Both the position numbers and the translations under genes were made by a program. Under the pieces are notes generated by a model. That model saw only the letters and a list, made by a program, of their open reading frames with translations, had not been told where the DNA came from and did no database searches. Below, one piece after another: positions 362 through 50,059 of a stretch of 50,059 nucleotides of DNA; within the stretch, counting starts at the first letter, position 1; the number at the start of each line of letters is the position of its first letter. Source of the stretch: a virus. The stretch covers positions 1 through 50,059 of IMG/VR virus record IMGVR_UViG_3300011416_000002; one strand, given 5' to 3'.

Positions 362-1672
362 TTACTTTCCTGCACTGTCAGCCTCCGGAGGCGTTTCCGT
401 AGAGGCTTCATCTTCAAGGTTGACTGCCATATCGTAGAAGTAGAAGCGGTTGTCAGCATCGTCCCAACCAAAGACGTAGCCTTCCACCGTCACAAGGGTC
501 ATGTCCTTTAGCATCCCTATGTGGGGAAACTCATTGGAGCCGAAGAGCCCCATAGCCTTTGCATAGGCTTTGTACTTGTTGTTGGACAGGATTGGGGTTC
601 CTTTGCTGTCCTCCACATAGAAGGGGTGGCCATCCAGCTCCTCAAGGAGTTCGGCCTCCCCTGGTTGTAGATCGGGGCATTCATCGCTCTTTGTCGATGT
701 GACCTTTCGTCCCCCATTGAAGTAGTGCTTCACGAAGGAGCCTTCTTTGGTGCGCTGCCACCATCCAGTGCGCCCCTCTTTGACGGGCTTCTCTGTCTTG
801 GCGTACCTGGTATTCGTATATCCGCCGTATGTGTTCTTGGAGCCACCAGCACTGACCTTTCGACCGGTCATGTCCTCTACATACTTCAACTGGTCATGGC
901 ATTCGACAGCTTCCTTACAGTAGAAGGACCGAAGCCATGTAACGGGGCACATATCGTCTGGAACGAGGCCCCCAACGGAAGCGACGATAGAAGCGGCTGT
1001 TCCGGTGCGACCATGACCTCCCATACAGAACATTACAATGTTGCTCCCTTCTTCAAGGGACGCGATCTTATCAACGAAAACCCGCCACCATTCCATAGGA
1101 AGTTGTGATGGAATACCATAGTCGGGCCAGTTGATGTGCATGTAGGGGACAGTTGGGGTCTTCCATACGAGGGAGCCGAAGGTTTCTTCCGCGCTCTCAT
1201 TACATGCGAGGATACGATCACCAGCCCCACCAGCTATCTTCGACCATGTCCCCTTGATGAGGCACACCACGAGGTCCCACGCTTTGTCTACATCAAGGGG
1301 AACCTTGAAGGTGACCTCACTCTCTTTGCCGATCCATACGGTGCAACCACCGATCTTCCCAAGGACATGGAGGCCCTTATGGCAATCGCGGCTCCACACT
1401 TCAGTGTGGCTATAGGATGTGGCTGTGGATGTGGTGGCCTTTGGAGGGCCATTCGTGATGACCTCAATCACGTCTGAGGCATCCATGAGGCATATCATCT
1501 TCTCGCGGCATGACCACATAGAGCAGGTTTGCTTGTGGCGATTGCACCATACGGTGTCCGGTAGCTTCTTCATTGGGGTAGTCTCCGTCTTCGGCTTGTT
1601 CATTTTCTGACACACAAGCATACAATGTGCATTGTGGCATTCATCACGATAGATGGGGCACTTACGAAACAT
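362..1672 (-). CDS. Protein phosphatase of the cysteine (PTP/dual-specificity) type with duplicated Cys4 clusters
   Basis: This 436-residue protein carries the two hallmarks of cysteine-based protein phosphatases. There is a WPD loop at residues 182-184 (general acid Asp184) and, about 32 residues later, a P-loop CMGGHGRTGT with Cys216 and Arg222 in the CX5R(T/S) arrangement. The spacing fits the family. Ahead of it lie two cysteine clusters of similar spacing, C5-C12-C17-C21 and C43-C50-C55-C61, which look like two zinc-binding knuckles. The remaining C-terminal ~200 residues are not recognised. The ATG at 1672 overlaps the TGA of the upstream 770-residue gene. An active enzyme would remove phosphate from protein or another phosphoester. 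The substrate cannot be read from sequence; a host kinase cascade or the product of the coupled upstream gene are possibilities. Confidence 0.75.
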   Translation of the reverse strand: MFRKCPIYRDECHNAHCMLVCQKMNKPKTETTPMKKLPDTVWCNRHKQTCSMWSCREKMICLMDASDVIEVITNGPPKATTSTATSYSHTEVWSRDCHKGLHVLGKIGGCTVWIGKESEVTFKVPLDVDKAWDLVVCLIKGTWSKIAGGAGDRILACNESAEETFGSLVWKTPTVPYMHINWPDYGIPSQLPMEWWRVFVDKIASLEEGSNIVMFCMGGHGRTGTAASIVASVGGLVPDDMCPVTWLRSFYCKEAVECHDQLKYVEDMTGRKVSAGGSKNTYGGYTNTRYAKTEKPVKEGRTGWWQRTKEGSFVKHYFNGGRKVTSTKSDECPDLQPGEAELLEELDGHPFYVEDSKGTPILSNNKYKAYAKAMGLFGSNEFPHIGMLKDMTLVTVEGYVFGWDDADNRFYFYDMAVNLEDEASTETPPEADSAGK

Positions 1673-3984
1673 CACTCCAATCCCCCATCTTGGTCTTCGT
1701 TGTAGAGCGGCTCCCACTTAGGATAGTGCGGGTCCTCTGGGTTATCCGTGGGTGCTGGAAGGTTGTTCGCATACATGTCCTTTTGCAGCTTCACCTTCAT
1801 ACAGTCGATACATGTGCATTCAGGCAAGTAGTTATTGTATTGCACAAGGCTTTGAGGGGTGACCTCATTGATAGTTACAGGGAGCACCTTCTTGAGTTCC
1901 TTGTAGGTCTCCTTGGTAGGCGGCTCACCCTTCTTGGTGTAGAGCGGCGATATCCCATAAGGGGTCGCCCACTTGCCAACGCCATATAAGGCCGACAGCT
2001 CGCTGGATGTCATACAGTTTGTAGGAATACTCTTGTCGGTGTCATCGCATGCATTAGCGATGGGGTGCCACCTTGAGTAGCCGTCCTTCTTGGTGCAGAG
2101 GCCGCACTTGTAGAGACGGGGTTTCTCTGGTGGCGCTGTGACAACGAACCACTTGTTGTGAACGCTATTGAGAAAGCTATAGGTGTAGTTGGGCACATAG
2201 GCGTGATCGGTATCAGGGTGGTTCATGCACATCTGGTCCTTTGGATGGTAGACAGTTGTGGTGAACGATGCACCCGGCTTCTGACAGTAATTGCATGGGT
2301 AGTAGGAGACTGAGTTGATCTCCTCTTGAAGGGCCGCTTCATGCATATCCTTTATGCGTTGAGCCCGCCGCTCCTCTGCTTTAAGGCGCCTATCAGCACT
2401 CTCATTCCAGCCTTGGTTGATGTGCTTCTCGGCTTCCTTCTGGACCTTGATCTTCGCATCTTGGATAGGCCCGCAGAGGATTTCCATCACCTGAGGGGTG
2501 GCTAGCCCGAACTGAGGAACGGTCACTGAGAGGTCCACATAAGCATCGGCTATGAACTTGGATGTGAGCTTTCCACCATTGTGGACGGAATTGACCGCCT
2601 TATTGTAATAGACCACAACCTTATTCCAATTGATTTCAGTAGGCTCATCCTTGAACACGAATATGGCATCGATCATATTGCGAGTATCCCGCGCTGCATC
2701 TCGCCACTTGGGACCGCCATATGAGCAGCTTCCTACATAATCCCCGTTCTTATCCTTGGCATCAGCCGCGCCCCTCCATGGACCTTCAAAATCCTGGACC
2801 GCTTGATCTATAAGGGATCGCAGTATCTCCATGTTATTGATCGATAACAGACGGGTGAATACCATATCGCGTGAGCCATGGGTTTGTGAGCCCTTCATTA
2901 ATGGCACACGGCTTTTGTCCAGCATTATCCAATCTATTGCTGGAGCGCTCCCATTAATAGAGCCGGGGCCACTGGCATAGAAATGCCTTGCTTCCCCTAT
3001 GCATGCAGCGGTTAGGATGCGCGCCATCAACGATACTCCGGCCACTCGGAGCTTCAATAGGTATGGTTCGTAGCCCCATTCGTTCATGACATGGAGGATC
3101 GACACTGATGCTTGGATAGCGCTTTTTCTATCGCAAAACATGGGCTTTCCAAACATCTTGCTCATGGCCCTGTAATGAACGCGCCGTAGCTTAGGAGGCT
3201 GCTCACTGTCAGGCTCTAAGGCATCTCCTGCGACAGGCTTAGGTGCCTCAGGATCAGTAATCACTGCGAAACCCTTCGCTATTCCATGCACTGTTATATG
3301 CGATGACAATGATACTCCTGGGCAATAGATTGCGGTCCCCTCTTCCATGGTGTTGACGCGGCGTTCCCATAATAGGAGGTCATTCACCTCTTCCTCAGTT
3401 GGGATAACAACGCTGGATACTATGTAGCGTTGTGTGGGCACATAGTTATAGCGCACACGGCCTACCTTAGGGCCATCCCTAAGCTGTACTATGGTAACCG
3501 CTCCACTATTCTCTACGATTTCCATGTATGGGCTGTCCTTTATACCGGCAGCTCCATAAGCGGACATTCTATCAAGATAACTTGTGAGCTTTCCAGGGGT
3601 GCATGGGATTATATATTGCTGTCCCTTACCAGCCGTGGCACCATCATTTTTGTAGGCCCATGTCACAGAACTATCTGTGAGAACACCACTAGCGTTCCCT
3701 GATAGTGTGGGCATGATTAGGACTTCTGCCTTGGGATCGGCCATCTTGGCTTCCATGTACACATCCAAGAGGTCTTTCAATCCTTTGATGGGGCGGCTTT
3801 CTACAAAGCCATGGCGCGGCCTTTCTGGGCATGGACGCGCAAACATCCCATCTAGGGAATAGGTCTCGGGCATGTTGTAAGGGAGGCAGTAGGCCGTGAC
3901 TGTTTCGAACCATTGGGGTAGGACGCCCATTGTGCGCAATGTAGGCAACAAGGCGACGCCCTTGGCTTTCTGTGTCACATGCAT
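1672..3984 (-). CDS. Large unknown protein with a PEP-utiliser-like swivelling-histidine segment
   Basis: The start at 3984 is preferred over 3996 because GGAG lies six bases ahead of it (770 residues). Residues 153-172 read as an E-V-x8-VTIVQLRDGP pattern. Residues 221-244 (CPGVSLSSHITVHG, then GFAVITD) resemble the mobile phosphohistidine domain of PEP-utilising enzymes, with His229 at the place of the catalytic histidine. Both segments follow the order seen in the PEP synthase/PPDK superfamily, but the match is by eye and weak. The middle has YGGPKW (422-427) and SVHNGGKL (466-473). A charged helical stretch runs from about 528 to 556. The C-terminus is cysteine-rich (CNYC 564-567, CGLC 627-630, and a CTCIDC near 735), probably zinc-binding. 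It is the first gene of its transcript and is coupled to the phosphatase gene behind it. Confidence 0.6.
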   Translation of the reverse strand: MHVTQKAKGVALLPTLRTMGVLPQWFETVTAYCLPYNMPETYSLDGMFARPCPERPRHGFVESRPIKGLKDLLDVYMEAKMADPKAEVLIMPTLSGNASGVLTDSSVTWAYKNDGATAGKGQQYIIPCTPGKLTSYLDRMSAYGAAGIKDSPYMEIVENSGAVTIVQLRDGPKVGRVRYNYVPTQRYIVSSVVIPTEEEVNDLLLWERRVNTMEEGTAIYCPGVSLSSHITVHGIAKGFAVITDPEAPKPVAGDALEPDSEQPPKLRRVHYRAMSKMFGKPMFCDRKSAIQASVSILHVMNEWGYEPYLLKLRVAGVSLMARILTAACIGEARHFYASGPGSINGSAPAIDWIMLDKSRVPLMKGSQTHGSRDMVFTRLLSINNMEILRSLIDQAVQDFEGPWRGAADAKDKNGDYVGSCSYGGPKWRDAARDTRNMIDAIFVFKDEPTEINWNKVVVYYNKAVNSVHNGGKLTSKFIADAYVDLSVTVPQFGLATPQVMEILCGPIQDAKIKVQKEAEKHINQGWNESADRRLKAEERRAQRIKDMHEAALQEEINSVSYYPCNYCQKPGASFTTTVYHPKDQMCMNHPDTDHAYVPNYTYSFLNSVHNKWFVVTAPPEKPRLYKCGLCTKKDGYSRWHPIANACDDTDKSIPTNCMTSSELSALYGVGKWATPYGISPLYTKKGEPPTKETYKELKKVLPVTINEVTPQSLVQYNNYLPECTCIDCMKVKLQKDMYANNLPAPTDNPEDPHYPKWEPLYNEDQDGGLE

Positions 3985-4001
3985 TGGGAACTCCATTGGG
4001 T

Positions 4002-4022
4002 TTTGGCACGGGTTTGGCACGG
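4002..4022. promoter_or_regulatory. Tandem 10-bp repeat next to the start of the 770-aa gene
   Basis: TTTGGCACGG occurs twice (4002-4011 and 4013-4022), 11 bases apart, that is one helical turn. On the transcribed strand it reads CCGTGCCAAA twice and ends within 20 bases of the start codon. This looks like an operator or activator half-site pair. No cognate protein is identified. Confidence 0.4.
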
Positions 4023-4105
4023 CCCAAGTGTGGCAGATTTGCCGCACTTTTGGCCATGTGGCGCGCTGCCGCGTGCCATTTTGTCGCACGCGCCGGCCGG
4101 CGGCG

Positions 4106-4120
4106 TTAACCTTTCGTTAA
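4106..4120. promoter_or_regulatory. CtrA-type box upstream of the 770-aa gene
   Basis: TTAA at 4106-4109 and TTAA at 4117-4120 are separated by exactly seven bases, the consensus of the alphaproteobacterial response regulator CtrA. The box sits about 120 bases ahead of the start codon at 3984, inside a gene-free stretch of about 300 bases (3985-4287). That stretch also holds the tandem repeat at 4002 and the terminator at 4214. A second box with identical geometry is at 5173-5187. Confidence 0.6.
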
Positions 4121-4213
4121 CTTTCCTCGCACGCGCTGGCGCGGCACCAGGGATCGCAGGCTCGCATGGCGATTGCGGCGCCAAATTTGGCCGCTAGCTG
4201 GCCAGGAATGAGA

Positions 4214-4239
4214 AAGGGGAGGCTAGATAGCCTCCCCTT
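4214..4239 (-). terminator. Intrinsic terminator after the leftmost early genes
   Basis: AAGGGGAGGC and GCCTCCCCTT form a perfect 10-bp stem around a six-base loop. In the leftward direction the stem ends in CCCCTTTCTC, a short U-rich tail. It follows the stop codon of the 75-residue gene at 4288 and separates that small operon from the transcript of the 770-residue gene. Confidence 0.7.
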
Positions 4240-4287
4240 GTCGATTGCGTCTGGCGGTCCGCTTTGGGCCGCTGGCTGTGTTGAGCG

Positions 4288-4515
4288 TTACAACCAATCG
4301 TTTTCTTGCGCCATGTCTAGCATGTAGCCAAGCCAGAAGTGTCGGAGGCCACGGGCCCATGCCTCGCGATAGGCGTGCTCACTTTCGGCGGTCTCACGCA
4401 CCCATGCAGGAGGATTGCAGGCATCGTCCTCCTGCATCTCGTTTCCATCCCTATAGCCAGCTTTGCCAGCGCGCTGCACTAGCAAGCTGTTCGATGTTGC
4501 TATGGCCAAGCTCAT
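4288..4515 (-). CDS. Small charged protein (75 aa), unknown; faint RMF-like pattern
   Basis: The start at 4515 is used because its ATG overlaps the TGA of the 30-residue gene upstream (TCATGA). The sequence has GYRDGNEM, then a CNPPAW segment, and ends in an aromatic and acidic stretch (AYREAWARGLRHFWLGYMLD). The G-x-x-A/D-G ... NP ... W-x-x-G layout recalls ribosome modulation factor-like small proteins, but the resemblance is weak. It is the last gene before the terminator at 4214. No membrane segment or signal peptide is visible. Confidence 0.55.
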   Translation of the reverse strand: MSLAIATSNSLLVQRAGKAGYRDGNEMQEDDACNPPAWVRETAESEHAYREAWARGLRHFWLGYMLDMAQENDWL

Positions 4516-4604
4516 GACAGCACCAAATGCAAGAGAGCTCCTGAGACCATGCCGAGCACAAACATGGCGGCCATTAACCATGCGATTTCATCGTTCGGGC
4601 TCAT
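4512..4604 (-). CDS. 30-aa single-span membrane peptide
   Basis: ATG at 4604 and TGA at 4512 enclose 30 codons beginning MSPNDEIAWLMAAMF. Residues 8-28 are almost wholly hydrophobic, so one membrane span with a short acidic N-terminus is predicted. Both ends overlap neighbouring genes by the palindrome TCATGA, which gives simultaneous stop and start. This coupling is the main reason to believe such a short gene. Confidence 0.5.
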   Translation of the reverse strand: MSPNDEIAWLMAAMFVLGMVSGALLHLVLS

Positions 4605-4693
4605 GACGTCACCAATAGCAGGAGGGACAGGATTATGATGGTTGCACATAGAACGATTTCTATGAGCATGCGCTCATCGTTTGAGTGTTTCAT
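4601..4693 (-). CDS. 30-aa single-span membrane peptide, first of a coupled trio
   Basis: It begins MKHSNDERMLIEIV and ends in a run of Ile, Leu and Val. There is a strong AAGGAG ribosome site seven bases before the ATG at 4693. The ribosome site lies directly beside the alternative hairpins at 4704-4738, so translation of this peptide and of the two genes coupled behind it could be gated by RNA structure. No family is recognised. Small phage membrane peptides may affect superinfection, lysis timing or host membrane enzymes; nothing here selects between these. Confidence 0.5.
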   Translation of the reverse strand: MKHSNDERMLIEIVLCATIIILSLLLLVTS

Positions 4694-4703
4694 ATGCATC
4701 TCC

Positions 4704-4738
4704 TTGAACGCGAAAAGGCCACGCGTTCAAGCGTGGCC
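4704..4738 (-). terminator. Terminator with an overlapping alternative hairpin
   Basis: Read leftward, GGCCACGC and GCGTGGCC (4738-4731 and 4724-4717) form an 8-bp stem followed by TTTT: an intrinsic terminator. TTGAACGCG and CGCGTTCAA (4730-4722 and 4712-4704) form a competing 9-bp stem that shares bases with the first. The two cannot form together, and the second ends against the AAGGAG ribosome site of the next gene. This is the architecture of a terminator/antiterminator switch. Confidence 0.6.
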
Positions 4739-4756
4739 GCTTCACGATGCTAGGGT

Positions 4757-5098
4757 TTATTCGTCGCTCTCATCCGAACCATGGCCTTGCGCGGCCAAGT
4801 AGGCCCGCATGGTCGCCGCAAACTTCGGATCGGCCATCTTGCGCTCGATTTCCAGCGCGGTCCTGTCATGCGCAGGATTGGGGATGCCAGCCGACACGTT
4901 GATGCGCAGGTTGCCACCGAGCGCCTTTAGAGCGCGCCACTGGGTAGAGGCGAAGATGCAGAGCGCGCCAGACTTGGACGGCTTGGCGCGGGCCAATGCA
5001 TCGGCCGACACGTCAATGCGGATGACAAGATAGTCGCCATCCATCTGTGCCGTTACGCCATTGGAGACCTTAACGATGGGGTTTGAGATCATGTTCAT
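4757..5098 (-). CDS. Conserved-looking early protein (113 aa), unknown
   Basis: This is the first leftward gene beside the control region. It has an AAAGG ribosome site and a CtrA-type box 75 bases ahead of its start. The N-terminal half alternates hydrophobic and charged residues (PIVKVSNGVTAQ, DGDYLVIRIDVSADAL), which suggests a small beta-rich fold. The end is helical and acidic (GHGSDESDE). Its promoter-proximal place suggests an early role such as host or transcription control. No family is recognised. Confidence 0.65.
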   Translation of the reverse strand: MNMISNPIVKVSNGVTAQMDGDYLVIRIDVSADALARAKPSKSGALCIFASTQWRALKALGGNLRINVSAGIPNPAHDRTALEIERKMADPKFAATMRAYLAAQGHGSDESDE

Positions 5099-5172
5099 TG
5101 TAAGAGCCTTTCAGGTTGTAGCGGCACCGACCACCATTGGCGGGTGCCAAGGCCGAAGATGCGACGCAAAGG

Positions 5173-5187
5173 TTAAGGAAGAGTTAA
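5173..5187. promoter_or_regulatory. CtrA-type box upstream of the first leftward gene
   Basis: TTAA (5173-5176), seven bases, TTAA (5184-5187), followed by C. Read leftward it is GTTAACTCTTCCTTAACC, close to the CtrA full site. It lies 75 bases from the start codon at 5098, where an activator or repressor of that promoter would bind. With the box at 4106 it gives both leftward promoter regions the same site. Confidence 0.6.
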
Positions 5188-5312
5188 CGGCACCACATAA
5201 ACGCTGTTCAATAGCGCGGTGTGGCGTTTTGTCGCGGGGCGAGGGAGCGTGCGAGAAAAGCGGTTTTTCTGCGGAATATGAAGAGGTTCTTTTGTGTGTC
5301 TTATATGCAATC

Positions 5313-5361
5313 TGAACGCTGTGTTGTGCGGGTCTCGCCCAATTGAACGCCGTAATGTGCG
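5313..5361. repeat. Pair of imperfect 18-bp direct repeats
   Basis: TGAACGCTGTGTTGTGCG (5313-5330) and TGAACGCCGTAATGTGCG (5344-5361) match at 15 of 18 positions with a 31-base period. The core TGAACGCTGT occurs again inverted as ACAGCGTTCA at 5622-5631. These could be iteron-like binding sites for an initiator or a regulator. Confidence 0.4.
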
Positions 5362-5844
5362 CCGGGCCGAGATGTACCGGCACCCGTTCCCCCCGCCCCA
5401 CCCCCGGCCGCCGGGCGGCAGAAAACGGGGCCCCGCCGGACACGCCGTGTACATGCAACTGAAAATAAATAAGAAAAACCCTGCACGCTGCATATACAGT
5501 ACACAGATCATAGGATGCAGCGGCCACCTTTCCGCGCCATGTCGCATAAGCATCTTACAAAGGATGAGGCTCGCTCGCTTCGCTCGCTCGCTGGGTGCGG
5601 CATATCGTCGCATCTGGGTGAACAGCGTTCAGCCCCTGCGGGAGGGTGGAACCGGGGACGGGGAGCGGCTATCGGATAGAGGACTGGGACGGGAGCGGGG
5701 GGCCGGAGAAGGGGCAGTGATACGCTAGTGAGAGGCCACATGGTTCTAGCATGTGGCTCCCTAGCTACTGGTAGGTAAATAGGCGAGCGGGAGCGAACGT
5801 AGAGGGGTTCAAAGTCCAGATTACCCTTATAGAGGAAGATGAAC

Positions 5845-6046
5845 TGACCCTCCGAGGTCCTCCGACGAGACCGAGGAAACCATTTCTCGCGAGCGTTAGC
5901 GAGAGCGGTCAGCTCCAAGTGGTCTTATAGGCGATCTGACCTTTTGACCTGTCGCCCCTGCGGCGTTCGGCCACATTGAGTTGACCTGCTGACCCGTATA
6001 GTAGGAGTTCCAGCAGGGGTCAGAAGGCCAATTCCCGGTCCTGACC
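5845..6046. repeat. Cluster of eight TGACC boxes before the replicative ATPase gene
   Basis: TGACC occurs at 5845, 5937, 5945, 5982, 5990 and 6042, and as GGTCA at 5907 and 6018. Two pairs (5937/5945 and 5982/5990) have the same 8-base spacing, TGACCT-NN-TGACC. CTGACCC and GGGTCAG also form an inverted repeat around 5989-6023. Clustering in about 200 bases directly upstream of the RepA-like gene suggests iterons or an autoregulatory operator. Confidence 0.45.
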
Positions 6047-6067
6047 CCCTGATCTGGTCCCCCAAAC

Positions 6068-7132
6068 ATGCCCCAAGAGGCAAAAGCCCCCTACTTAACC
6101 GTCCGGCGTTCCGACATGATCGAGAAAAAGCAGATCGAATGGCTCTGGAAGCCCTATATCCCCGCAGGAAGCCTCTCCATGCTGACCGGAGACCCCGGTA
6201 TCGGTAAATCGACCCTGGTTTGCGAGATCATAGCCTGTCTGACGACCGGCCGACCGCTCCCTGGCATGGTTCCGGGGTCCATCCCGCCGTCCGAGTGCTG
6301 GATTTTGAACGCTGAAGACGCAGCCGACGACACGATTGTCTGGCGTCTCGACAACCAAGGCGCCGACCGCTCAAGGGTTCAGGTCACAGATCAGGCCAGA
6401 CCGCTGGATGAGCGGGCTATGAAGCAGATTGACCAGGTTCTAGGCGACCTGAAGATCAAATTCATGGTGGTTGACCCGGTTCAAGCCTGGACCGGCAGCA
6501 AGATCGACATTCACCGGTCAAATGAGGTCCGTGAATGGACCGAGCCGCTCCGTAACTTGGCAGTCTTCCATAAGACTGCCATCATGTTCATCCGCCACCG
6601 CCGCAAGGGAGCGGCCGGGGACAACCGCATCCAGTCAGGGTATGGCTCCATTGACTTCACAGGGGCCGTCCGGAGCGAGAACAGCGCCATCGAGGCGAAG
6701 GATGGCACCAAGTTCATCGCCCGCATCAAGGGTAACGTCGGCGTTGTGAAGGGCACCGGCCTTGCCTACATCTTGGAGACGCACCCTGATCCTGAGAACG
6801 ACCACGGCATCCTCCGCTGGCAAGGTGCCTACAATGAAGAAGCCATCAAAGAGAAGAAGACCGCTTCCCGTGTTCCTAAGGCGATGGGACGGGCTATTCT
6901 GTTCCTACAGGGTTTCCTGAACCAGGGACCGAGAACCGCGAAAGAATGCTTTACCGAGGGACTGAAGTCCGGTATCAGTGAGAGCACACTGAAGCGAGCC
7001 GCCCACGATATGGTGGACCGCAGCCGTGACGGGGACAAGATGCTATGGGCACTGAAGACATCTTCCCCTTTTGAAGATATGCCCCTGGTACAGATGAATG
7101 GCGCCGCTACCGAAACGCACATGGACACTTGA
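6068..7132 (+). CDS. RepA-like (AAA_25) replicative helicase ATPase
   Basis: This 354-residue protein belongs to the hexameric RecA-fold ATPases typified by RSF1010 RepA, which unwind DNA at the fork. Walker A is GDPGIGKST (41-49). Walker B is FMVVDPVQ (132-139, Asp136). The family's RHRRKG segment (176-181) is followed by GSIDFTGA (193-200). The C-terminal ~80 residues look like a small winged-helix module. It starts the rightward block right after the TGACC cluster, consistent with binding near its own origin. No separate primase gene is recognisable, so priming is likely host-supplied or by an unrecognised protein. The terminase small-subunit gene starts 35 bases inside its 3' end. Confidence 0.8.
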   Translation: MPQEAKAPYLTVRRSDMIEKKQIEWLWKPYIPAGSLSMLTGDPGIGKSTLVCEIIACLTTGRPLPGMVPGSIPPSECWILNAEDAADDTIVWRLDNQGADRSRVQVTDQARPLDERAMKQIDQVLGDLKIKFMVVDPVQAWTGSKIDIHRSNEVREWTEPLRNLAVFHKTAIMFIRHRRKGAAGDNRIQSGYGSIDFTGAVRSENSAIEAKDGTKFIARIKGNVGVVKGTGLAYILETHPDPENDHGILRWQGAYNEEAIKEKKTASRVPKAMGRAILFLQGFLNQGPRTAKECFTEGLKSGISESTLKRAAHDMVDRSRDGDKMLWALKTSSPFEDMPLVQMNGAATETHMDT

Positions 7133-12864: not shown

Positions 12865-12949
12865 GCCAGGGTAGCTCAAAGATAGAGCGCCGGTCTAGTC
12901 TGACGACTAGGAATGCCGGAAGATGGAGGTTCGAACCCTCCCCCTGGCC
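12865..12949 (+). tRNA. tRNA-like element with an expanded anticodon loop
   Basis: The 7-bp acceptor stem is perfect (GCCAGGG 12865-12871 with CCCTGGC 12942-12948). The D-arm is GCTC-AAAGATA-GAGC. The T-arm is GGAGG-TTCGAAC-CCTCC with the canonical TTCGAAC loop (12925-12941). The anticodon stem CCGGT pairs with GCCGG using one T-G wobble, but the loop has 20 bases instead of 7 and contains a 6-bp hairpin CTAGTC-TGAC-GACTAG. Removing 13 bases would leave a normal loop, with GGA, AGA or AGT as anticodon depending on the cut. CCA is not encoded. A T-run follows (TTATTTTTTT). It may be an intron-bearing or degenerate tRNA, or a tRNA mimic with a regulatory or processing role. Confidence 0.55.
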
Positions 12950-12962
12950 CCTTATTTTTTTA

Positions 12963-20678: not shown

Positions 20679-20875
20679 GCCTCCGCGAAATGTCGCCTTC
20701 AGCCCGCCTTAAGGCCGCTAAAGCTGCCTTCGGCCGACGCCATGGAGCCTCCCCCGAAACGCGGGAGAAGATCGCGGCTGCCGAAAGTAAGATGGAATGG
20801 CGGGGCCAATGCCGGAAGTGCAAGACCCCCTTGAAAGGGCTCCTCAGCGAACTGAAGGAGCACCGCTGTGGTTGA
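20675..20875 (+). CDS. Small Cys-containing basic protein (66 aa)
   Basis: The ATG overlaps the TGA of the hub gene. It has a basic helix (SARLKAAKAAFGRRHG) and a possible zinc ribbon fragment, CRKC (46-49), with HRC near the end. It overlaps the tailspike gene by 8 bases. A small assembly factor is possible. No family is recognised. Confidence 0.55.
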   Translation: MSLREMSPSARLKAAKAAFGRRHGASPETREKIAAAESKMEWRGQCRKCKTPLKGLLSELKEHRCG

Positions 20876-38211: not shown

Positions 38212-39154
38212 CGAGCACTTCTCCTCTGAACGTGACGAAGCCACCGGCTTCGTCGATGACAGTTACGAGTTCCGGGGGCAGTAGCGCCCCCTTCTTGAAG
38301 GTAAGTATGCAGAACCCTGCGACGTGATTACGTGGGTTGTGCTCCTGGTACTCGAACTGGGGACCCCAGACCGGCGCCAAAGCGCCCGCATCAACCCCCC
38401 ATCGCGTACCATTGTAGTCCGTGAAAGGCGTAACCTTTTGGCTATGGAGATGCCCCGTAACCATGGTGCGGCCAGACCACATCGCATTGTTATGTGTCGC
38501 ATGAATGCCACCCTTGAACCGATGCTTCACAATCGCACTAGGCGCCCTCTTGGGATCGCCCACCTCAGCCGCCCAACACGGTTCCCAATCCGGGAAGTGA
38601 TGCACGAGCCGCGTTCCATACACGTTCCGGAACTCCGGCGCCACCTCCGCCAGCCGCCTATTGAAGCGGGCATCATGGTTGCCTAGCGTCCAAATCTTCT
38701 TAGCCTTCCCCGCCGCCTCAGCGATCTCTCCCAGCCGCTCCTGCACCTCACATAGCTCATCTTCAACCGTCGGCACCTTCTCCCACCCTATCGGAGGATG
38801 CCGACTGATAGATGGGGCATCCAGCGCGTCCCCGTTCATGATGACCACGCGGGGCTTCATCTTCTTGATGAGCTTCACGAAGGCCCGGTGCGCCGTGCTG
38901 TAGATGCCCGGCCAGTAGTGCGCGTCCCCGCCTATGAAGACCATCCCATCGCTGATCTGGGCATTCACCTTCTCATTCTGAACCGGCATCCCCTTAGTGT
39001 ATTGGTTGGCTTGTCCCATCCGTAAGCTCGTCCCTGAACGCTGTTCAATCTTCGCACGGCGCTCATGAACCCGCCGCTCCCCTATGCCGAGCGCCTGTGC
39101 AAGCCTGTTGGGTCCGAGGGCTCTGTACTGCTCAATGAACTCATCGTCGCGCAT
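38204..39154 (-). CDS. Calcineurin-like metallophosphoesterase with N-terminal HTH
   Basis: The ATG at 39154 with AGAGGA eight bases upstream is preferred (316 residues). The frame stays open to a GTG at 39262, which would add a low-complexity basic leader. Residues 1-35 (EFIEQYRALGPNRLAQALGIGERRVHERR) look like a helix-turn-helix. The metal-binding signature follows in order: GDAHY (76-80), NGD (107-109), GNHD (158-161), IHATHNN and GHLHS (234-238). Phage enzymes of this type may act as nucleases, dNMP/RNA phosphatases or cyclic-nucleotide hydrolases; the sequence does not decide. The HTH suggests a DNA-linked task. Confidence 0.75.
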   Translation of the reverse strand: MRDDEFIEQYRALGPNRLAQALGIGERRVHERRAKIEQRSGTSLRMGQANQYTKGMPVQNEKVNAQISDGMVFIGGDAHYWPGIYSTAHRAFVKLIKKMKPRVVIMNGDALDAPSISRHPPIGWEKVPTVEDELCEVQERLGEIAEAAGKAKKIWTLGNHDARFNRRLAEVAPEFRNVYGTRLVHHFPDWEPCWAAEVGDPKRAPSAIVKHRFKGGIHATHNNAMWSGRTMVTGHLHSQKVTPFTDYNGTRWGVDAGALAPVWGPQFEYQEHNPRNHVAGFCILTFKKGALLPPELVTVIDEAGGFVTFRGEVLDV

Positions 39155-39633: not shown

Positions 39634-39798
39634 TTAGTCCTTCTTCTTGGTGCGGGGCCGGGTTGACCCCAGCGCCTCAGTGATGCGGCCCCTGTTGACG
39701 CCAAGCCGCTCCGCGAGGTCGGTCCTCCTTAGGTCCGGGAACCTCTTGGCGGTCTGTCTGATCTTCTCCTGCGTAATCTGCTCGTTCACCCTTTTCAT
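39634..39798 (-). CDS. Small helix-turn-helix protein (54 aa)
   Basis: The ATG at 39798 overlaps the TGA of the polymerase gene (ATGA). The sequence holds a clear HTH: RTDLAERLGVNRGRITEAL (residues ~24-42) followed by a basic tail (STRPRTKKKD). It is probably a DNA-binding regulator, possibly of the operon it sits in. Its small size hides it from long-frame searches, but the coupling and the motif support it. Confidence 0.7.
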   Translation of the reverse strand: MKRVNEQITQEKIRQTAKRFPDLRRTDLAERLGVNRGRITEALGSTRPRTKKKD

Positions 39799-41414
39799 AG
39801 CTCTATCTCCACTAACCCTTCTGGATTGCTCTTACTCTGCTTGCTCCAGTTGGAGCCGATTGCGGCCTCCACCTGGATGATGCACTCCCGTTCCTTGCCA
39901 TGGATGTCGCGCACCGGGACCTTGACCGACATGCACCCACCCAAGATGTCCAGCACCTCCTTTTCGTGTTCTGTCCTGTATTGGAAAAGCACCGCGTCGT
40001 GAACCTGGGCCAGCACTTCCAGAAGCTCCGGATCATATTGTGAGAGCCTCCACAGCCCAATGTTCAGGATATCCCCCACCCCGCTCTGAGGCCCGAACGC
40101 CAGCGCCTGCTTGTAGGTATGGGTGTCGTTGGGCCGCCCCAGGAGCCGGACTTCCCGATCCAGTGGGTTGTAAATCGGCTTCCGTTCATACACGTCTTGC
40201 AGCCGTTGGTTCTGCCACTCCTTGATGCCAGGGAACGCCTTGAAGAACCTTCCTTGGGCCTCCTCGCACCGGACGATGGGTATCTTGGCGATCATCGCCA
40301 TCCCCCGTGGAGTGAGCCCGTAGTTAGAACCGTGCTGGACCCGCTTCGCCTGGAACCGATAGTCGTGCCCCTCCGTCTTGTCCCAAGGCGGGTAGGTGTT
40401 CTTAGCCAGCGCCTTGTCCTTCTTGAGGTCTCCCGTCCACGGTATTTCTTCACTCCAGACCTCTCGACAGACGTAGGTATGAACGTCCCGCTGATGCGCT
40501 TCGATGTATTTTTCATCCCCCGCGATATACGCAACCAATAGACTTTCAGCGGTCTTCAGGTCCACATAGCACAGCTTCCGACCGCTATCCGGAACGAAGA
40601 TGAACCGATGCTTCTCCGCGATGTTCTGTAGGTTGCCGCCCTCCCCATATGGGTTCTTCGACGAACTCCACCGGCCGGTCCAAGGTGCAGAGACGTTGAA
40701 CCCGCTATGAAAGCGGCCCCTCAGACTAAGCTTAGCGGAGAGGAAACCCCTCTGCTTGTTGAGGTCCCGATGTTCCCGTAGCAGTTCCAGTAGGGAGCTG
40801 TACTTCGGCTTCTCATGGGACAGTTGCTCCAATGCATCATCATCCGTGGTGAGTGAACCGGTTTGCCCGTACTTCTTGGGGAGCTTCATCCTCTCATACA
40901 GAAGGTGGCAGCATTGATCCTTCGACGCGGGCTGGAACCGCATAGGCTTCAAGCGTGGCATCCCGCAGCGCTCACACCGCATCTCGTCCTGGCTCACAGC
41001 CGGCTCACCAACGGCGGTCCTGGGCCACTTATGGCGCTGCTCTTTCCCGGTCTTCGTCAGCTTCTCCGACTTGGGACAAAAGCCCGTTTCGAGTTCGACG
41101 CCATCCCAGAACTTGATGGTCCATTCATTCGCCTGGATAGCATCGGCGGTCTTCTCCAGGCTCTCGGTGACATCCTTCAGGGCAAGCTTCTGGCCCACCG
41201 TATCGACCTTGACCCCGCGAATACCCATGATGAAAGCCGGCGTCTGTTGCGCCAGGTTCCACTTGTAGGTCCGCACTTGGTTTGCGTTGAGCCTGGGTCT
41301 CAGGCGATTGAAGATTTCAAGGGTGCCGGTCGCATCGAGGCACGAATAGGCCGCGAACTTGGCTTCCCCGTGAAGCTCCTGGGCCTTCTCCAGGCCCACC
41401 GTGTTGAATTTCAT
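39795..41414 (-). CDS. Family A DNA polymerase, C-terminal piece (end of exonuclease + polymerase domain)
   Basis: 539 residues. The first 35 residues carry exonuclease motif III (YSCLD, Tyr23 and Asp27), so the protein begins inside the proofreading domain whose first half is encoded at 42885-44000. Then come TGRWSS (246-251), a NLQNI stretch (261-265), motif A with Asp285 and Glu290 (CYVDLKTAE), motif B with Arg353, Lys357 and HGSNYG (361-366), and motif C VHDAV (471-475; Asp473). An insert at ~105-170 has C147-X2-C150 and further cysteines, possibly a zinc site. It should be the replicative polymerase, active together with the N-terminal piece. The start overlaps the preceding gene as ATGA. 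Confidence 0.88.
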   Translation of the reverse strand: MKFNTVGLEKAQELHGEAKFAAYSCLDATGTLEIFNRLRPRLNANQVRTYKWNLAQQTPAFIMGIRGVKVDTVGQKLALKDVTESLEKTADAIQANEWTIKFWDGVELETGFCPKSEKLTKTGKEQRHKWPRTAVGEPAVSQDEMRCERCGMPRLKPMRFQPASKDQCCHLLYERMKLPKKYGQTGSLTTDDDALEQLSHEKPKYSSLLELLREHRDLNKQRGFLSAKLSLRGRFHSGFNVSAPWTGRWSSSKNPYGEGGNLQNIAEKHRFIFVPDSGRKLCYVDLKTAESLLVAYIAGDEKYIEAHQRDVHTYVCREVWSEEIPWTGDLKKDKALAKNTYPPWDKTEGHDYRFQAKRVQHGSNYGLTPRGMAMIAKIPIVRCEEAQGRFFKAFPGIKEWQNQRLQDVYERKPIYNPLDREVRLLGRPNDTHTYKQALAFGPQSGVGDILNIGLWRLSQYDPELLEVLAQVHDAVLFQYRTEHEKEVLDILGGCMSVKVPVRDIHGKERECIIQVEAAIGSNWSKQSKSNPEGLVEIEL

Positions 41415-42627: not shown

Positions 42628-42892
42628 TGGCTTCTTCTTCATCAGTCGCGTCATCTGCTTTGTCCTTCTGTTTGAACACTCTGAAAGCGTAGGCCATTAC
42701 TTCAAGCTCTACCCTGTCCCCGACCTTAACATCTTCCGGCTTTAGCCCCGTTGCATGGAGCGCGGCCTTCGATACCAAGATGTTCCCTAGGTGATGAAAC
42801 AGCCTTGGACTGATAGGCCGGGCCAAGATGGTGACAAGCCCTCGCTGGTTCGTTTCATGATGCTTGATGACACATGGGATGTTGTCACTCAT
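42620..42892 (-). CDS. Small beta-rich protein directly after the exonuclease piece (90 aa)
   Basis: ATG at 42892 overlaps the TGA of the exonuclease gene by 8 bases. A hydrophobic beta stretch (CVIKHHETNQRGLVTILARP), a LKPEDVKVGDRVELEV block typical of small barrel folds, and an acidic tail (DDATDEEEANE). Acidic ends are common on proteins that bind replication partners. It stands exactly at the upstream edge of the polymerase split and might bridge the two pieces. Confidence 0.6.
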   Translation of the reverse strand: MSDNIPCVIKHHETNQRGLVTILARPISPRLFHHLGNILVSKAALHATGLKPEDVKVGDRVELEVMAYAFRVFKQKDKADDATDEEEANE

Positions 42893-44000
42893 CGCGCTTA
42901 TCTCCTCTCTGCTTCTGCCTTAGGCCGCTTTCGCCGGCCCAATGCTTCCATGAGCCTTGCCGGCTGTAGGAATTTCCCATGAACTGTAGGCTCGCCGGTA
43001 GCTCCGGGTAAAGAGCTTTGTGAAGCAACCGCAGATCGTGGCAGTAATTGCGGGGCCTTATGTTCATCTTCTGTAGGAGCCAGGGCACATCATAGGCGCC
43101 GAAGTTCTGTCCCAGCTTCGGGACATCGTTCTCCAGGATCGCCTTGCAGGCCATCCAAGCCCGCTTCTCCTTGGCCGCGCTATACCAGTAGGATGCGTTG
43201 AGGTTGTCCATCGAGATGAAGGGGACATACATCGCCCGCTCCTCTGAGGTCGCGAACGCTATACCCCGTACCATTCTTGGTACGAGCGCATTATCAGGGC
43301 TCCACCATGTCTCGATGTCGGCACTCAGTAGAGGCGCCTTCGCCGCCTCATCCACGAAGGCTTCCACTTCCTCGATGGTCGGCGCAATGCTCAGGAGCCG
43401 CTTCGGAAGCTCTATGTGCTTCCCGATTTCGGCCTCGGCCAGCGCCCTATTGAGGTCCCCGATGAACACATGGAACAGGCTGTACTTACGCCGGACCATG
43501 TCGGGGTCGAAGATGGGGAAGAACTTCACCCCGAAGAACAGCCGCTCTCCCATGAAGGGCTGGCCCCTCAGGTTGCTGATGTTGCCACCGGGCTTGAACG
43601 CGGCCACCGCATTGGTGCCAAGCGGGACGACCACAGTGGGGTTCGCCGCTTCGATTTCGGCCTTCACCCGCGCAAGCGATGCCTCATGATAGGCGGGCCA
43701 CTCGGAGCCCCGGCGCCGCTTCTCCCGCACAATGTCGTCCCCCTCGAACTTCTCATCATAGACATAGGTGAGGAGGCAGTCGTAGCGGTCTATCGAGGCG
43801 GCTCTCATGCCGCTCTCAAGGATGATCCCAGTAGGACCCACGAAGGGCGCGTTCTTCTCGCACTCCCACGCCTGCGGGGCGTCACCGATGAAGGCCAGCT
43901 TACAAGGCGCTCTACGCGGGAAGTCGGCCGGGACCTTCCGACCGTACTCCTCGGAGCGGTTCTCAAAGCGGGGCTTTCTTACTCTTGTGAAGGTAGCCAT
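42885..44000 (-). CDS. UDG-like domain fused to the first half of the 3'-5' exonuclease domain (polymerase N-terminal piece)
   Basis: The ATG at 44000 gives 371 residues. Residues ~30-190 are a uracil-DNA glycosylase family 4/5-like domain: GDAP (39-42), PFVGPTG (52-58), VVVPLGTNA (123-131), and IFDPDMVRR (163-171) where most relatives have His-Pro; the histidine position is Asp165. Residues ~220-371 carry exonuclease motif I (SADIETW, Asp228, Glu230) and motif II (GQNFGAYD, Asp304), then the ALYPELPASL helix and a WKHWAGES end. Motif III is missing here and found in the polymerase piece at 39795-41414. Together they make one UDG-exo-pol chain of the SPO1 type cut in two. Confidence 0.85.
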   Translation of the reverse strand: MATFTRVRKPRFENRSEEYGRKVPADFPRRAPCKLAFIGDAPQAWECEKNAPFVGPTGIILESGMRAASIDRYDCLLTYVYDEKFEGDDIVREKRRRGSEWPAYHEASLARVKAEIEAANPTVVVPLGTNAVAAFKPGGNISNLRGQPFMGERLFFGVKFFPIFDPDMVRRKYSLFHVFIGDLNRALAEAEIGKHIELPKRLLSIAPTIEEVEAFVDEAAKAPLLSADIETWWSPDNALVPRMVRGIAFATSEERAMYVPFISMDNLNASYWYSAAKEKRAWMACKAILENDVPKLGQNFGAYDVPWLLQKMNIRPRNYCHDLRLLHKALYPELPASLQFMGNSYSRQGSWKHWAGESGLRQKQRGDKRDE

Positions 44001-44036
44001 GAAAAAGCCGGGGACCGCCCATGCCAAGCGGTCCCC
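44001..44036 (-). terminator. Intrinsic terminator touching the start codon of the UDG-exo gene
   Basis: GGGGACCGC (44036-44028 read leftward) and GCGGTCCCC (44018-44010) form a perfect 9-bp stem with a nine-base loop, followed by GGCTTTTTC and then the ATG at 44000. This is a good intrinsic terminator, and no Shine-Dalgarno sequence fits between it and the ATG. It can act as an attenuator of the polymerase unit. Confidence 0.7.
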
Positions 44037-49425: not shown

Positions 49426-50045
49426 TGCGGCACCTTTGTCCTAGCTTCCTTGATGAGCTTCGATAGATCAGCGCATGTCAGGTTGTGGCTATAGGAATGA
49501 TCGCCACACTCACATGCAAGGTTAGGCGTCACCGTGGGCTTGTGGACCGTCACATATGTGGCGTTTTTCCCACGTCCAATCTTCTTCTTGCTGTGCGTTC
49601 CTCCTGTTCTGTATTGCCAGAATTGGAACTCATTGAGCCCATCCAATAGGCCCTTCAATGCAAGTTCCAACGATAGGGCGCGGGTCTTCGCATCTATGTC
49701 TCCCTTGTAGGGAGAGACACCACCTATGTTGAACTTCAAGACCTGGAACGGGAGCTTGGCCACCCCATCATCTTGATTGATCTTCCCAATGCCGATCTCG
49801 ATTTCATCCTTGTCGATGCAGATGAAGACGCTATCCAGCGTAGCAGGGTTCCTGAAGATCACATTCATGGTGTCGAAGCGGCCATGCCTAGTGAAGTTCT
49901 TGAAGTGTCCAAAGGAGCGGGTTGAGATTGTTCCCACGAGGGTGCCATGCTTCGACCCAGATGAGTGTCCCCTTGCATACTTGAAGTAGCTCTTGGTCTT
50001 CATACCGATGTGGAAGCCAATCGATAGGGTCTTGATCTTCTTCAT
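49422..50045 (-). CDS. Unknown protein crossing the circular junction (207 aa)
   Basis: It starts at 50045 (equal to base 109 of the left copy) with ATG overlapping the TGA of the 84-residue gene. The sequence is beta-rich and basic (YFKYARGHSSGSKHGTLVG, TRHGRFDTMNVIF, CIDKDEIEIGIGKI). A CxC and a His/Cys-rich stretch lie near residues ~178-192 (ACECGDHSYSHNLTC), a possible zinc site. No family is recognised. The contig break lies within this gene only because of how the circle was opened. Confidence 0.65.
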   Translation of the reverse strand: MKKIKTLSIGFHIGMKTKSYFKYARGHSSGSKHGTLVGTISTRSFGHFKNFTRHGRFDTMNVIFRNPATLDSVFICIDKDEIEIGIGKINQDDGVAKLPFQVLKFNIGGVSPYKGDIDAKTRALSLELALKGLLDGLNEFQFWQYRTGGTHSKKKIGRGKNATYVTVHKPTVTPNLACECGDHSYSHNLTCADLSKLIKEARTKVPQ

Positions 50046-50059
50046 ATGCGCACCATGAA
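49937..50059. repeat. Terminal direct repeat, right copy
   Basis: Identical to bases 1-123; see the left copy. The two copies should be merged to close the circle. Confidence 0.95.

Follow-up and report, generated by a model that had tools for sequence, protein, structure and literature searches.

Two exact CtrA-type boxes ahead of leftward genes in the genome of an uncultured phage

Genome layout and the divergent region

The window, that is the whole stretch of 50,059 bases analysed here, begins and ends with the same 123 bases (1-123 and 49937-50059), which leaves a circular or circularly permuted sequence of about 49,936 bases. These identical ends make it probable that the contig represents the whole, circular genome of a phage. 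The rightward block encodes an AAA ATPase, a terminase, a portal-like connector, a major head protein and structural proteins. The leftward block runs from 5098 through the contig ends down to about 37 kb and comprises two box-headed units, a phosphatase-like ORF, an exonuclease/PD-(D/E)XK nuclease, an AAA protein, polymerase ORFs and a metallo-phosphoesterase. Judging from this gene content, the leftward block would consist of early genes. The features around the boxes are the following:

362..1717, minus strand: leftward ORF with a weak dual-specificity/tyrosine phosphatase match (E 3e-4, under the Pfam cut-off)
1672..3984, minus strand: large leftward gene that follows box 1; its ORF of 805 aa opens at 4089, with 3984 as the likely start
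4068..4087, minus strand: common element GCGACAAAATGGCAC, adjoining box 1
4106..4120, minus strand: CtrA-type box 1, TTAACGAAAGGTTAA in gene direction, ahead of the large leftward gene
4214..4239, minus strand: perfect inverted repeat of 12 bp, followed in the leftward transcript by a tail containing T (repeat search and fold)
4288..4581, minus strand: small 97-aa ORF in the leftward unit of the 113-aa gene
4757..5098, minus strand: first leftward gene, 113 aa
5099..6067, no strand: intergenic gap that separates the divergent leftward and rightward structural blocks
5173..5187, minus strand: CtrA-type box 2, TTAACTCTTCCTTAA in gene direction, ahead of the 113-aa gene
5216..5235, minus strand: common element GCGACAAAACGCCAC, adjoining box 2
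6068..7132, plus strand: first rightward gene, AAA_25 ATPase of the replication type (E 1e-28)

Both boxes are exact TTAA-N7-TTAA matches. Box 1 reads TTAACCTTTCGTTAA and lies past the 4214-4239 repeat, ahead of the large leftward ORF, and box 2 reads TTAAGGAAGAGTTAA and lies inside the divergent gap. The 113-aa protein encoded by the first leftward gene (4757..5098) gave no Pfam or PHROG match. The phosphatase-like ORF contains a CMGGHGRTG stretch; the PHROG label of thymidylate synthase over 362-1717 looks doubtful. A tRNA-Thr (AGT) call at 12865-12951 falls within the major head protein ORF and is probably spurious.

In a stretch of 46 bases, the 4214-4239 repeat gives a fold of -21.8 kcal/mol; it is a probable leftward terminator between the two leftward units, which makes two separate leftward transcription units plausible. 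Inverted repeats around AACGCTGTTCA are also present in the gap, as might be expected if the boxes were parts of a replication origin or hairpin in that gap and not operators. We consider this extremely improbable, since the boxes are single and about 1 kb apart, with the terminator-like repeat between them, and do not form iteron-like arrays.

Frequency of the motif in the window and in shuffled sequences

The initial annotation, made from the sequence alone, had proposed two perfect boxes at 4106-4120 and 5173-5187, and both were found there. It had made its proposal dependent on the motif being infrequent elsewhere in the genome; an exact search of the window returned boxes 1 and 2 only (n = 2) and no third match. 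When a single mismatch was allowed, one more site appeared, at 20698. The window contains 29 TTAA words, 4 of which form the two boxes, and at spacings of 0 to 20 no other TTAA pair was found across the window than these two, both with a spacing of 7. Random placement of the 29 words gave 0.016 pairs expected at the offset of the boxes. In the non-coding parts of 3985-6067, all four TTAA words belong to the boxes.

The comparison with shuffled backgrounds that the annotation had suggested likewise favoured its reading, with two sites observed against 0.04 to 0.07 expected. At least one site arose in 27 of 400 dinucleotide shuffles of the genome (mean 0.07), so that a single site is unremarkable, and the site found in one relative (L009, see below) may be of this kind. 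Two sites, however, were reached in only one of these 400 shuffles and in none of 100 dinucleotide shuffles (mean 0.04), nor in any of 5000 shuffles of the local 3985-6067 stretch, genes included (mean 0.009 sites). These odds leave aside that both boxes are non-coding, lying outside the genes as called in this analysis, and ahead of the leftward units. A chance origin of both boxes is thus very improbable, and the pair represents real, non-random CtrA-type sites.

Phages with concentrated CtrA sites (LPEG-type) were defined in 2022 in PMC9437464, where lytic deferment is proposed, by a normalized positional entropy <0.75 with >5 predicted sites; an alphaproteobacterial host with CtrA and entry by way of pilus or flagellum are further traits of this kind of phage. 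Using a mismatch count as a stand-in for the matrix of that paper, we obtained an entropy H of 0.825 for the 46 sites with ≤2 mismatches (random mean 0.871, with 1.5% as low) and, with the same rough stand-in, an H of 1.0 for the 3 sites with ≤1 mismatch, both values lying above 0.75.

Relatives and probable host

Terminase relatives were fetched as two overlapping sets of 31 and 78 loci. Among the seven long relatives (L009, L018, L020, L046, L054, L078 and L079; terminase identity ≥57%, contigs >30 kb), the exact site was present in one, the record of L009. It lies there 74 bases ahead of a leftward ORF, at the same distance as box 2, and within a hairpin (-18.8 kcal/mol), possibly the terminator of the preceding gene. 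Five of the 27 distinct full viral records searched besides the window contained the exact site: L009 (62% GC), L033 (50%), L074 (47%), L085 (37%) and L088 (40%). The sites in the last four are unsurprising by chance, because these records are AT-rich. Exact boxes are therefore not conserved across the clade, and conservation was set aside as a proof of function, only L009 being left as support and its site being doubtful because of the hairpin. Site gain and loss occurs even between close phages, as described in PMC9437464, so that non-conservation is compatible with function, yet the strongest kind of support is gone.

The nearest terminase relatives, L003 and L004 (79%), do not extend to the homologous place; they end 650 and 545 bases, respectively, upstream of their AAA gene. 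No closer relatives were found when the 805-aa ORF, the 113-aa protein, the first rightward AAA protein and the phosphatase-like ORF served as queries, and the exonuclease search gave two relatives, both without TTAA-N7-TTAA. By eye, the region 3000-9000 of L009 contains several copies of GTTTAAAC, a word absent from the window.

GANTC is the word methylated by CcrM. It occurs once in the window (39407) versus 250 expected (sd 15; 30 dinucleotide shuffles), the strongest depletion among the palindromic words tested. Such avoidance is an independent sign that GANTC is methylated or cut in the host, as it is in Alphaproteobacteria with CcrM, and GANTC methylation or restriction is also found outside this class. 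In named control phages, with expectations computed from base composition, we counted 0 versus 190 in Rhizobium phage RHph_TM3_14A (first 50,000 bases), 45 versus 146 in Caulobacter phage Kuura, a partial depletion, and 24 versus 36 in phiCbK (first 12,000 bases). Cronobacter phage Ss1 (178 versus 163) and Polaromonas phage Tiera (200 versus 176) showed no depletion. GANTC is thus depleted in some, not all, phages of Alphaproteobacteria. Many terminase relatives were strongly depleted (observed/expected, e.g. L018 0/82, L020 0/52 and L054 0/44), and others partially or not at all (e.g. L003 22/44 and L009 42/74). About half of 33 pelagiphages, which have an alphaproteobacterial host, are reported as GANTC-depleted in PMC9516812.

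The closest isolate by DNA polymerase was Caulobacter phage Kuura (OQ067476; 31%), and by terminase the closest were Rhizobium phages (27%). With a single GANTC and with phages of Caulobacter and Rhizobium as nearest isolates, the alphaproteobacterial host to which the initial annotation had pointed is likely. In the GTDB genomes, only 2 of 53 candidate stretches encoded relatives; the MAGs concerned bear the labels Anaerolineales and Rhodospirillales, so that the GTDB scan does not pin down the host. A CRISPR search with positions 1-40000 gave short matches and no clear match among 385 genomes of one class; of the short matches, L115 and L121 were inspected and have no spacer array, the repeat of L121 being a 15-base tandem. 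As to the polymerase, the leftward ORFs at 39795-41414 and 42885-44027 match different parts of one PHROG DNA polymerase family (phrog_17), so that this gene may be split.

Promoter geometry and comparison with CtrA-linked phages

The boxes had been placed 75-125 bases ahead of the first genes of the leftward units, in agreement with our measurements of 74 bases from the end of box 2 to the ATG at 5098, and of 109 or 121 bases from box 1 to the ATGs at 3996 and 3984, the latter with a GGAG six bases upstream. CtrA control of phage promoters has been demonstrated by EMSA and reporter assays for three phages, and the gp005 and gp018 promoters of phiCbK are described as bound and activated by CtrA, with CtrA-dependent expression (PMC9437464). 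The phiCbK genome (JX100813; 215,710 bases) contains just six perfect sites; each terminal repeat has three of them and the remainder has none, so that a small number of well-placed sites is nothing unusual in a proven case. Like phiCbK, the present phage has few perfect TTAA-N7-TTAA sites, in both phages all upstream of genes of unknown function. In phiCbK, the box lies 60 bases from the start of gp005, 72 from that of gp018 and 43 from that of gp020; the 74 bases of box 2 resemble this spacing of 43-72, whereas the 109-121 bases of box 1 do not. The two phages also differ in that the sites lie in terminal repeats in phiCbK and head the leftward block here. Positions 1-25000 had no nucleotide match in the phage collection.

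Eleven bases past the second half-site, box 1 is followed by GGCGCGTGC, with no -10 element, and box 2 by CATCTTCGG, a poor one. At the same distance the three phiCbK promoters, in which we assigned the -10 elements by eye, have CAGGGTCGC, CTAGGGTCG and TATGGTCGG; a stretch like CTAGGGTCG about 11 bases downstream is missing here. No sigma-70-type promoter was detected in 3900-6200. A match to the sigma-73-like consensus GCTANAWC at 5122-5115, 51 bases from box 2, was discarded, there being 8 such matches in the window. Box 2 weakly resembles a classical CtrA-activated promoter, in which the box would overlie the -35 region. Box 1 seems unlike such a promoter, and CtrA may repress there. Repression by CtrA sites is possible according to PMC11264516, and the case of vB_BsubS-Delta is given in PMC9437464.

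The poor -10 elements, together with the lack of conservation in the long relatives, would also suit recent or passive sites that CtrA can bind without consequence, the leftward start lying elsewhere in the 970-base gap. We regard this as quite unlikely, as both sites occupy promoter-like places and none occurs in the other 48 kb.

Other phages offer further comparisons. In Brevundimonas phage vB_BsubS-Delta and Sphingomonas phage vB_StuS_MMDA13, CtrA sites occupy the gap, about 1 kb long, that parts two divergent blocks, as here, but vB_BsubS-Delta has 12 canonical sites in that gap (PMC9437464), whereas the present phage has two boxes, one in the gap and the other about 1 kb further downstream leftward. 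Jorvik, a phage of Rhodobacter capsulatus whose infection requires ctrA, is similar in having one putative, intergenic CtrA site between oppositely facing operons; it differs as an unrelated, membrane-containing and integrating phage (PMC10589892). Kuura shares the rightward structural block and leftward replication block, but has no TTAA-N7-TTAA and a weaker GANTC depletion.

A regulator other than CtrA, coded by phage or host, might use the TTAA-N7-TTAA direct repeat as its operator. Compatible with this, the box flanks differ, so that the TTAA half-sites alone are common to both, and both regions also contain GCGACAAAA, which occurs in the window only at 4068-4087 and 5216-5235. In the direction of transcription it is downstream of box 1 and upstream of box 2. 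Its presence in both regions suggests that the leftward units are probably under common phage control. A regulator of this kind is nevertheless unlikely to be the user of the boxes, since half-sites and spacing are identical to the CtrA consensus, and the ORFs scanned, most of which have no family match, yielded no recognisable regulator gene. GCGACAAAAYGSCAC, likewise at 4068-4087 and 5216-5235 and confined to these two leftward promoter regions, is a possible second control element.

The reading that we consider probable is that the boxes are functional sites for host CtrA, heading two leftward units of a phage of Alphaproteobacteria. We infer CtrA binding from the two perfect sites, spaced by exactly 7, outside genes and ahead of leftward genes; the distance of 74 bases for box 2, close to those of phiCbK gp005 and gp018, also argues for this reading, and the non-conserved sites, the poor -10 elements, the missing sigma-70-type promoter and the lack of a site in Kuura argue against it. 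The host response regulator CtrA, known as the master regulator of the cell cycle in Alphaproteobacteria, would when phosphorylated bind the paired half-sites and set the timing or strength of leftward transcription, and phage expression would then track the CtrA state of the host, that is the cell cycle in some orders and the motility state in others. CtrA drives the cell cycle in only part of the Alphaproteobacteria, as stated in PMC9437464. Box 2 would act with a geometry roughly like that of the phiCbK promoters activated by CtrA, and box 1 may repress.

Since CtrA control of phage promoters is prior art (PMC9437464), the present case is likely a new example and not a new mechanism. It would extend the short list of phages known to have promoter CtrA sites by a distinct uncultured lineage, as would fit repeated, independent acquisition of such sites. 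Two cheap sequence signals occur together here, CtrA boxes and the avoidance of GANTC, and they could serve in assigning hosts to uncultured phages. Should the replication block be gated by CtrA, replication of the phage would be coupled to the state of the host. A more far-reaching and rather doubtful extension is that the phage reads host CtrA for its whole leftward replication block, through an activating box 2 and a repressing box 1, having nearly erased GANTC and so become invisible to the CcrM/GcrA clock. As a minor observation, copies of a further element, TGAACAGCGTT, are located at 5200-5210 and 5619-5629, both in the divergent gap, and at 39036-39047.
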